Assembly (NCBI GenBank): GCA_019748095.1
Contig: JAIEQA010000017.1
Span: 1-64,000 of the forward strand
Source of the DNA: Caulobacteraceae bacterium
Lineage (GTDB): Bacteria > Pseudomonadota > Alphaproteobacteria > Caulobacterales > Caulobacteraceae
Reading direction: 5' to 3'
Length of the DNA stretch: 64,000 nt
Position 1 is the stretch's first letter. The number at the start of each line of letters is the position of its first letter. A model generated the notes under the pieces. The model had not been told where the DNA came from. It did no database searches and saw only the letters and a list, made by a program, of their open reading frames with translations. Shown piece after piece: positions 51,667 through 54,968 of the stretch. A program made the position numbers and the translations under genes.

Positions 51667-52173
51667 TCACACCCCCGCCCCCTCATGGGCCAGCAGCCAG
51701 CGCTTGCGCTCCAGCCCGCCCGCATAGCCGGTCAGGCTACCATTGGCTCCGATCACCCGGTGGCAGGGCACGATCAGGGCGACCGGGTTCTGACCATTGG
51801 CCAGCCCCGCAGCCCGCACGGCCTTGGGCGACCCGACCGCCGCCGCCAGCTGGCCATAGCTGCGAGTCTCCCCCGCCGGAATGGCCCTCAGCGCCGCCCA
51901 GACCGCCGTCTGAAAGGCCGTCCCGCCGGTCTTCACGACCAGCCCGTCCAGCGCGCCGAGGTCCCCCGCAAACCAGGCCTCAACCGCCCCCCGCGCAGGC
52001 TCATTACGCCCCCCGACCAGCACAGCCCCCGGCGCATGGCGCTTCAGCAACCGCAGCATCCGCGCCTCATAGTCGGCAAAGTCCAGCGCCCGTACAGCAC
52101 CGTCCGCATCGGTGACCAGCAGCACCTCGCCCACCGGCGTCGCGAGCCGGTCCAGCGTCAGAACATCATCCAT
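51667..52173 (-). CDS. ogt: Methylated-DNA--[protein]-cysteine S-methyltransferase
   Basis: NPVALIVPCHRVIGANGSLTGYAGGLERKRWLLAHEG. Confidence 0.95.
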   Translation of the reverse strand: MDDVLTLDRLATPVGEVLLVTDADGAVRALDFADYEARMLRLLKRHAPGAVLVGGRNEPARGAVEAWFAGDLGALDGLVVKTGGTAFQTAVWAALRAIPAGETRSYGQLAAAVGSPKAVRAAGLANGQNPVALIVPCHRVIGANGSLTGYAGGLERKRWLLAHEGAGV

Positions 52174-52189
52174 CGTCTCGCTCCTGTTC

Positions 52190-52351
52190 TGTTGTCTCCT
52201 CCCCGTCCGAAGGATGGGGAGGGGGACCGCCCGCCGCTTGGCGGGGGGTGGAGGGGTTCTTGACGCCCCACCGACTGTGCTCGCTTCAAGACCCCCTCCG
52301 TCACGCCGCGCAGGCGCGGCGTGACACCTCCCCACACCCTTCTGGCGCGGA
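52190..52351. repeat. Interspersed repeat family C (composite palindromic)
   Basis: cccgtccgaaggatggggagggggaccgcccgccgcttggcggggggtggagggg...gaccccctccgtcacgccgcgcaggcgcggcgtgacacctccccacacc. Confidence 0.6.
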
Positions 52352-53413
52352 GAGGAGACCGTTGATCTCCAGATACAGCGCCCCATAGGCCCGCCACGGC
52401 CGCCAGTGTTCGGCCCGCTCCACAAGCGCTTCATCGTCCAACCGATCGCTCGGCGCATCCTCGCCGGCATCGACCCAGTGTCCCGGCAACCTCAGCCCCG
52501 GCCGCGCCTCGACCAGCGGCCGCAGCCCCGGATCGGCCGACAGATCCCGGGCGATCGCCTCGGGATCGGCCGACAGGTCGAATATCCGCCGCACCCGTGC
52601 CAGCACGCCGGGCAGGGCCTTCAGATCGTCGACCTCGACACAGACCGACAGCCGGCCGGCATCGCCCGGGGTCGCCGTCACGAACCCTGTGGCCCCGTCC
52701 CCGGCCCGGTCCAGATCCCGGGACCACACCCGGCCCTCGACCCGGTCGCCACGCGCCGCCAGGGCAGCCAACATCACCGGCCAGTCATAGGGCGGGCGAT
52801 AGGACAGGGTCAGCCGCACGCCGCGCCCGGCCGGCCGCTCGGCCCGCCGCCGCAGGGCTGACGGGGCCCGGCCATACAGGGCCTGAAAGGTCTCGTTGAA
52901 ACGCCGCACGCTGCCGAACCCCGCCGCCAGTGCGACCTGGGCCATCGACAGGTCCGTCTCATGGATCAGGGCCTTGGCCAGCAGCACCCGCCGCGTCTGG
53001 GCCACACTGACCGGGGCCGCGCCCAGATGCTGGCGAAACAGCCGCCGCAGCTGCCGCTCCCCGACCCCCAGCCGGCCGGCCAGGGCGTCCACGTCGCCGT
53101 CATCCAGCGCCCCCGCCTCAATCAGGCTGAGCGCGCGGCTGACGGTGTTCGAGGTCCCCCGCCAGGCCCCCAGATCGGGAGCCGTCTCGGGCCGGCAGCG
53201 CAGACAGGCGCGGAACCCCGCCGCCTCCGCCGCGGCTGCAGAGACCACGAAGCGCATATTCTCCCGCCTGGGCGTCCGCGCCGGACAGACGGGCCGGCAG
53301 TAGATCCCGGTGGTCTTCACACAACCGAAGAACCGCCCGTCGAACCGGGCGTCACGGGTCAGGACGGCCCGGTAGCAGGCCTCCTGATCCAGTCTGTCCG
53401 CCGCCGTTTCCAT
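52301..53413 (-). CDS. Ada/AlkA-type fusion (Ada Zn-binding, AraC HTH, AlkA N-terminal domain) apparently lacking the HhH-GPD glycosylase core
   Basis: FFGCVKTTGIYCRPVCPARTPRRENMRF...CLRCRPE; AraC HTH VALAAGFGSVRRFNETFQALYG; AlkA_N VRLTLSYRPPYDW; jumps from PGLRLPGHW to ALVERAEHWRPWRAYGALYL. Confidence 0.85.
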   Translation of the reverse strand: METAADRLDQEACYRAVLTRDARFDGRFFGCVKTTGIYCRPVCPARTPRRENMRFVVSAAAAEAAGFRACLRCRPETAPDLGAWRGTSNTVSRALSLIEAGALDDGDVDALAGRLGVGERQLRRLFRQHLGAAPVSVAQTRRVLLAKALIHETDLSMAQVALAAGFGSVRRFNETFQALYGRAPSALRRRAERPAGRGVRLTLSYRPPYDWPVMLAALAARGDRVEGRVWSRDLDRAGDGATGFVTATPGDAGRLSVCVEVDDLKALPGVLARVRRIFDLSADPEAIARDLSADPGLRPLVEARPGLRLPGHWVDAGEDAPSDRLDDEALVERAEHWRPWRAYGALYLEINGLLSAPEGCGEVSRRACAA

Positions 53414-53464
53414 GCCGGAACAATGGACGCGGCAGCGGATGGAGTCTCGCGGTTTTCGGACACC

Positions 53465-54613
53465 TCAGCCCCGAAGGGCCCGCCAGACGTTGCCCAGACC
53501 GTTGAACACCAGGCCGATCGCCGTGAAGGCCAGTCCCCAGGTCATGATCAGCGACAGGGTCGAGGCCACCCCGACCAGATCACGTTCCTGCGCCCGCAGG
53601 TCATGCAGCCGGTCGAAATCCAGCAGCACCCAGTCACCGGCGATCCGGGCCTGTTCGGCCCCGACCGACAGGGTGAACCAGTGCTCGGCCCCCACGATCG
53701 CCCACACCAGCCACAGGCCGCCCATGGCGAGGAACACAGACACCAGCGCCCGCAGCCGTGCCGCCTCCGGCCGGATCAGGGTGAACAGATCCCGCCCAAG
53801 CTGCCCCAGCGTGTAGAGCAGGATCGGCACGAAAAGGGCGGCCCAGATGGGTCCCGGAGTCACATCGACCAGCGCGCCGTCCACCCGGATGACGCCCAGA
53901 CCCGGGAAATGCACCGCCCCAACCCACCACAGCAGGAAGATCGTCAGGGCGAGGGCCGAAAAGGCGGCCTCTCCGCTCACCGACCGGTGGATCCGCGGTC
54001 GCGGGGTCCACAGCGGCCGGGCGGCGTCGCCGGCACCCGCCGCCGTCCGGGCCCGCTCGCCCGCGTTCCGCGCCGCCACGCCCCAGGTCACCGGATCTGA
54101 CAGGCCGAAGGCCCCCAGATCCTTGACGCGCCAGTCGGTCAGCCATTTCGGCCGGATGCCGTTGTGCTCCATGACCGCTCCGGTCAGGGTCAGCGCACCG
54201 ATCAGGGTCAGGGCCGAGCTGAACCAGCCCCCGAAGGCCTGCGAGATGTCCTGGCCGAAGTTCGCCGGCTCGCTGACCAGCCGGACCGCCAGTCCAATGC
54301 CGGCGATGGCCAGCAGCACCAGCAAACCCGCCTTGACCCCGTACAGCCAGTAGGGAAACAGCTCGGGCCCGATCAGACTGTCAGGCCCCTTGCGATAGCG
54401 GGCCGCCACGACCAGCGGATGGCCGATCTCCTTCAGGATCGCCTCGCGTTCATCATCGGTCAGGGCGCGGCCCAGCGTCTCTTCCTTCGCCTCGACCCGG
54501 CTCAGGATCAGGTCGCGCAGTTCGGCGATGATGTCCTCGCGCTCGTCCGGTGGCAGCTGTGCGGCCACCGCCTCCAGATAGCGGTCCACCATGTCTTCAG
54601 TCTTGGCACTCAT
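53465..54613 (-). CDS. HAAS/DUF1700-type signalling-domain membrane protein
   Basis: MSAKTEDMVDRYLEAVAAQLPPDEREDIIAELRDLILSRVEAKEETLGRALTDDEREAILKEIGHPLVVAARYR; multiple TM; next to PadR. Confidence 0.85.
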   Translation of the reverse strand: MSAKTEDMVDRYLEAVAAQLPPDEREDIIAELRDLILSRVEAKEETLGRALTDDEREAILKEIGHPLVVAARYRKGPDSLIGPELFPYWLYGVKAGLLVLLAIAGIGLAVRLVSEPANFGQDISQAFGGWFSSALTLIGALTLTGAVMEHNGIRPKWLTDWRVKDLGAFGLSDPVTWGVAARNAGERARTAAGAGDAARPLWTPRPRIHRSVSGEAAFSALALTIFLLWWVGAVHFPGLGVIRVDGALVDVTPGPIWAALFVPILLYTLGQLGRDLFTLIRPEAARLRALVSVFLAMGGLWLVWAIVGAEHWFTLSVGAEQARIAGDWVLLDFDRLHDLRAQERDLVGVASTLSLIMTWGLAFTAIGLVFNGLGNVWRALRG

Positions 54614-54638
54614 ACCCGGTCCCCTCAGTCCAGAAATG

Positions 54639-54968
54639 TCAGAGAATCTTGTCGAGCGAGGCATTGATGCCCCGCCACTCGTCGGTCAGGGCGGCCAGCA
54701 TCGACACGCCCACGGGCGACAGGACGTAGAAGCGCTTCTTGCGCTTCTCCTCCTCGCGCCACTCGCTGTTCAGAAGGCCTTGGCTCTCCAGCCGGCGCAG
54801 CAGCGGATAGAGGGTCGATTCCTCCATCTCCAGACCGTCGGCGGCCAGGGCCTGACGCAGGGTGTAGCCGTACCGCTCGGTCCGCAGACAGGCCAGCACC
54901 GCCAGCACCAGCGACCCGCGCCGCAGCTCCAGCCGCATCGTTTCAAACAGGTCGGCGTCGATCGTCAC
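54639..54968 (-). CDS. PadR family transcriptional regulator
   Basis: LRRGSLVLAVLACLRTERYGYTLRQALAADGLEMEESTLYPLLRRLESQGLL. Confidence 0.95.
   Translation of the reverse strand: MTIDADLFETMRLELRRGSLVLAVLACLRTERYGYTLRQALAADGLEMEESTLYPLLRRLESQGLLNSEWREEEKRKKRFYVLSPVGVSMLAALTDEWRGINASLDKIL

Follow-up and report, generated by a model that had tools for sequence, protein, structure and literature searches.

The ada gene analysed here has lost the glycosylase core of an Ada-AlkA fusion and probably specifies a functional alkylation-responsive regulator, derived from such a fusion, that drives the ada-ogt operon. The short gene is probably a working switch and not a broken one, since selection on it persists and its promoter site is kept. 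The N-terminal domain of AlkA (AlkA_N) and the last AlkA helix survive in it as one constrained unit, which the preliminary description of the locus had missed. The protein probably functions as an AdaA-type sensor does, with AlkA_N and the helix as an additional module.

Gene Organisation and Domain Composition

The window is the whole 64,000-nucleotide stretch of Caulobacteraceae bacterium contig JAIEQA010000017.1 (assembly GCA_019748095.1) that was analysed. The features of the ada locus are as follows:

51667–52173, minus strand: ogt, O6-methylguanine-DNA methyltransferase (PF01035, E = 6.2e-36, and NCBIfam ogt), with the start at 52173
52175–52360, minus strand: interspersed repeat, 75–88% identical to six further partial copies elsewhere in the genome
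52301–53413, minus strand: short ada gene (370 aa) with Ada zinc domain, AraC HTH, AlkA_N and C-terminal AlkA helix; glycosylase core absent
52364–52432, minus strand: C-terminal AlkA helices with WRPWRAY, residues 328–350, matching 3oh6 258–278
52475–52813, minus strand: AlkA_N, residues 201–313 (Pfam E = 9.5e-26; AlphaFold pLDDT > 90; superposes on AlkA)
52844–53083, minus strand: AraC-type HTH (HTH_18), residues 111–190 (Pfam E = 3.8e-22)
53186–53380, minus strand: Ada zinc-binding domain (Ada_Zn_binding), residues 12–76 (Pfam E = 1.5e-30)
53444–53461, minus strand: candidate Ada operator GTCCGAAAACCGCGAGAC, conserved, 30 bp upstream of the ada start codon

The coordinates of the reading frame in the preliminary description are correct, and the strand, which it left unstated, is minus. 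The intact four-Cys zinc domain, AraC HTH and AlkA_N that it reported are all found by Pfam, and ogt does lie directly downstream, beginning 127 bp after ada. The zinc cysteines C39, C43, C70 and C73 are invariant among the aligned relatives, as are W337, P339, W340 and Y343 in the retained C-terminal helix. A short linker joins AlkA_N to the last AlkA helix. In several relatives (L035, L045, L052) this linker carries an in-frame insertion of the palindromic repeat GTCCCGGATCAAGTCCGGGATGAC, which fits a loosely constrained tether. In the window genome, the interspersed repeat accounts for ~20 codons at the end of ada and for almost the whole ada-ogt gap; the proteins of relatives end in ...DDAKRAA, where the window protein has the repeat-encoded tail. 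The product of the gene upstream of ada (53465–54664, minus strand) has 399 aa and a HAAS domain, and the stop codon of this gene ends 3 bp short of the 18-bp candidate operator.

Loss of the Glycosylase Core

A profile of the C-terminal part of the short proteins matched E. coli AlkA (3oh6) at chain positions 10–117 and 258–278, roughly AlkA 3–110 and 251–271 in native numbering, with nothing between. The tail thus resembles the extreme C-terminus of AlkA, as had been proposed, and the missing part is the counterpart of E. coli AlkA ~111–250, with the HhH hairpin and the catalytic Asp region. The full-length relative L101 aligns with E. coli AlkA continuously; statements about AlkA positions rest on this alignment and on the C-terminal profile against 3oh6. 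An HhH-GPD match, named beforehand as evidence against a loss of the core, was not found by Pfam at E ≤ 0.1 in the window protein or in 43 aligned relatives (44 proteins). The Pfam HhH-GPD model detects even the full-length L101 weakly (24.4 bits, under the model's cut-off), and the alignment is therefore the decisive evidence for the loss.

Trp272 lines the base pocket of AlkA. Its position is occupied by W in 32 of 33 full-length sequences and in 1 of 115 short forms, the exceptions being L179, with an eroded core, on the full-length side and the short form L012, which keeps the W. The window protein has E at this position. All 115 short sequences whose tail could be read retain the last helix (W.PW.AY). 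AlphaFold predicts AlkA_N and this helix as a single unit with a mean pLDDT of 93, and the model superposes on AlkA over ~120 columns at 1.7–2.3 Å (Foldseek, the output being silent on the placement of the helix). Short Ada proteins should not carry a glycosylase annotation.

Distribution and Origin of the Short Form

AlkA_N was found in 123 of 132 Brevundimonas genomes, with one gene in each (split across two contigs in G012), and is absent from the other 9. Every Brevundimonas ada copy examined, a subset of these 123 genomes, is of the short form; copies with an unusually long frame can all be read as short forms except one broken by Ns. The frame is open in nearly all species examined. The best Brevundimonas matches align end to end with the window protein, with an identical junction. 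This junction is shared by about 90 distinct Brevundimonas sequences, and this excludes an assembly deletion of the core, the other objection anticipated in the preliminary description. Judged from these comparisons, the short form is old in Brevundimonas.

Among 387 surveyed genomes of the class (Alphaproteobacteria), two other lineages proved to have this short architecture. One is family f55, with L135, whose sequence is identical to the Niveispirillum lacus locus L103; the other is genus g76 of family f70, and matches of the same kind were obtained from about 40 additional f70/g76 genomes. Other f70 genera have full-length proteins (L175–L177). One protein of this family, L179, has lost the hairpin and has a changed Trp272 position, and the Asp motif is still there; its partly eroded core may represent a loss in progress.

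In the tree of the shared region, which was built without L100 (its open frame extends far upstream), Brevundimonas groups near full-length proteins of Caulobacter and Phenylobacterium, apart from f70/g76 and Niveispirillum. This topology requires at least two losses of the glycosylase core. A single origin of all short forms is disfavoured by the AU test, marginally (p = 0.0435), and the starred branches also force two losses; Niveispirillum and f70/g76 may or may not share one loss (support 75/31). What had been seen as a feature of one genome is thus an old loss that happened at least twice. A repair enzyme was apparently turned into a pure regulator on each occasion through loss of its catalytic core.

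Selection on the Short Protein

Pooled dN/dS values (Nei-Gojobori) are 0.15 for the zinc domain, 0.16 for the HTH, 0.41 for AlkA_N, 0.39 for the linker and 0.19 for the helix; since synonymous sites are near-saturated, the values are rough and can be trusted for their ranking alone. In full-length proteins, too, AlkA_N changes more rapidly than the regulator half. In comparisons matched by how far the regulator half had diverged, the identity of AlkA_N in short Brevundimonas proteins was about that in full-length ones, and in f70/g76 it was higher. At the level of sequence conservation, the loss of the glycosylase did not relax the constraint on AlkA_N. The domain has been regarded as part of an enzyme and is still under selection here, which offers a direct route to asking what it does.

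The Conserved Promoter Site

The 18-bp site CCGAAAACCGCGAG is present in all 82 distinct Brevundimonas ada upstream regions. With at most one mismatch, it was found in 117 of the 132 genomes, namely in 117 of the 123 with AlkA_N and in none of the 9 without it, and the reversed control pattern gave one match in the 132. The short ada gene thus has a conserved site upstream of itself, as would be expected of an alkylation-responsive activator. The site also lies upstream of ada in full-length relatives, and several of these with a divergent ogt have a second copy, inverted and less exact. It is GC-rich and does not resemble the A and B boxes of E. coli. A search of the literature, covering open-access papers, yielded no earlier report of the 18-bp site or of the short architecture. 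The conservation of the site provides a testable adaptive-response regulon in Brevundimonas.

The ogt Gene and Separate Glycosylases

The ogt gene lies directly 3′ of ada in all 87 Brevundimonas sequences examined, a count made without L128, which has no ogt downstream and is a cut locus with a full-length gene of another family (G026). It is the only PF01035 gene found in the window genome. A separate AlkA-type glycosylase (226 aa, L003), which has no AlkA_N and whose best solved match is the Deinococcus-type 2yg8, is present in 24 of 25 genomes of the genus, and Tag in 22 of 25. Genomes that encode a full-length fusion can have homologues of the separate glycosylase as well. The few alkA-like and Tag loci that were read showed no good copy of the 18-bp site, and for this reason base excision appears, from the sequences, to be uncoupled from the ada switch. 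One genus member without AlkA_N (G006:C69) has a 356-aa frame matching the N-terminal half of Ada together with PF01035, like E. coli Ada.

Comparison with Known Systems

The closest architecture is that of the full-length Ada-AlkA fusions of Caulobacter sp. SLTY (L101) and Phenylobacterium (L099, L102), which share the zinc domain, HTH, AlkA_N, C-terminal helix and promoter site with the short ada and have ogt as a neighbour in most cases. These fusions keep the HhH-GPD core, the catalytic Asp and the Trp at the Trp272 position, whereas the short ada is without them; of the parts of a bifunctional fusion it has the zinc domain, HTH and AlkA_N and lacks the core. E. coli AlkA (1mpg, 3oh6) has in common with it the AlkA_N fold and the last helix, but the catalytic region (residues ~111–250) has no counterpart and the Trp272 position is replaced. 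The zinc and AraC parts are also those of the N-terminal half of E. coli Ada. In contrast to the latter, the short protein has an added AlkA_N, the site preceding its gene does not match the A and B boxes, and the methyltransferase is not on the same chain, PF01035 being found in the separate ogt gene.

Cada2 of Caulobacter is likewise an adaptive-response regulator, from the same bacterial family. It has no four-Cys domain, uses its own methyltransferase domain as the sensor and recognises a GCAA plus CGG motif (PMC10957082); the short ada protein has the four-Cys domain and lacks a C-terminal methyltransferase domain. AdaA-type proteins resemble it in combining sensor and DNA-binding parts with a separate methyltransferase, but consist of the zinc domain and HTH only, without AlkA_N and the helix; zinc-HTH proteins of ~210 aa are present in the class survey. 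The adaptive response of Brevundimonas fits neither the E. coli model nor that of Caulobacter.

Proposed Mechanism and Alternative Readings

The proposed history begins in a Brevundimonas ancestor, from whose fusion gene the glycosylase core (E. coli AlkA ~111–250) would have been excised, with AlkA_N and the last AlkA helix staying together as one folded unit. A methylphosphotriester in DNA would methylate Cys39, and the methylated protein would bind GTCCGAAAACCGCGAGAC upstream of its own gene and activate the ada-ogt operon and, in some species, a few unlinked genes. Ogt would then repair O6-methylguanine. The short protein itself is predicted to have no glycosylase activity, and the removal of 3-methyladenine would be left to the separate AlkA-type glycosylase and Tag. 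AlkA_N and the terminal helix could be a regulatory module in themselves, contacting DNA or the polymerase or mediating dimerisation, and could serve the Ada switch both with and without an attached glycosylase. This suggestion is tentative, with chances somewhat below even; it would account for the loss of the core in at least two lineages that nevertheless kept both the AlkA_N-helix unit and the same site.

The preliminary description had offered a methylation-sensing regulator or a decaying gene. The former is borne out by the low dN/dS of the sensor and HTH (0.15–0.16), the retention of ogt and a site that tracks the gene. The latter, with the core deleted and the remainder drifting to loss, could be suggested by the absence of the catalytic core, the greater variability of the linker and AlkA_N than of the regulator half and the 9 of 132 genus genomes from which AlkA_N is gone altogether. 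However, the loss is genus-wide with an open frame, purifying selection is strong on the sensor, HTH and helix, AlkA_N is as constrained as in full-length proteins and the promoter site is conserved. Neither a broken frame nor relaxed selection, the marks of a pseudogene, was found, and recent decay was rejected on the purifying selection and on the undiminished constraint on AlkA_N; drift towards loss is very improbable. A split glycosylase, in which AlkA_N of the short protein acts in trans with the separate AlkA-like protein, is harder still to credit: the parts of AlkA in the two proteins complement each other, and the proteins occur together in the genus, but the separate protein resembles Deinococcus 2yg8 and has homologues beside full-length fusions, and P. 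putida AlkA shows activity without the N-terminal domain (PMC4437013).

It is also unlikely that another regulator binds the 18-bp site and that the main function of short Ada is the repair of methylphosphotriesters. Recognition of the site by short Ada is our inference, and the GC-rich sequence does not look like the E. coli boxes; against this, the site follows the gene among the genomes with and without ada (117/123 and 0/9) and precedes ada in distant full-length relatives as well. Slightly less probable again is a non-catalytic damage reader, in which AlkA_N and the helix would recognise alkylated bases and tether the regulator or Ogt without excision. The unit is predicted to be still folded and is constrained, but the base-binding pocket and the Trp272 position are lost. 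The evidence as a whole favours the alkylation-responsive regulator.

Additional Copies of the Promoter Site

In the window genome, the sole good copy of the site is the one at ada. A search for the operator allowing three mismatches gave 8 matches there versus 10 in the control, and since this is no excess, no wider regulon is claimed for this genome. Extra copies were observed in about 20 Brevundimonas genomes (L235–L254). Twenty extra sites were read; 18 of them stand upstream of genes that fall into four classes, with PEP_mutase accounting for 8, a second ogt for 4, and DUF1203 and SRPBCC for 3 each. One gene of each class was scanned with Pfam, and the others were assigned by eye. The PEP_mutase-family, DUF1203 and SRPBCC proteins are possible alkylation-response genes. 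In Niveispirillum, the end of the short ada is overlapped by a gene whose start, judged by eye, resembles the site-preceded PEP_mutase protein.
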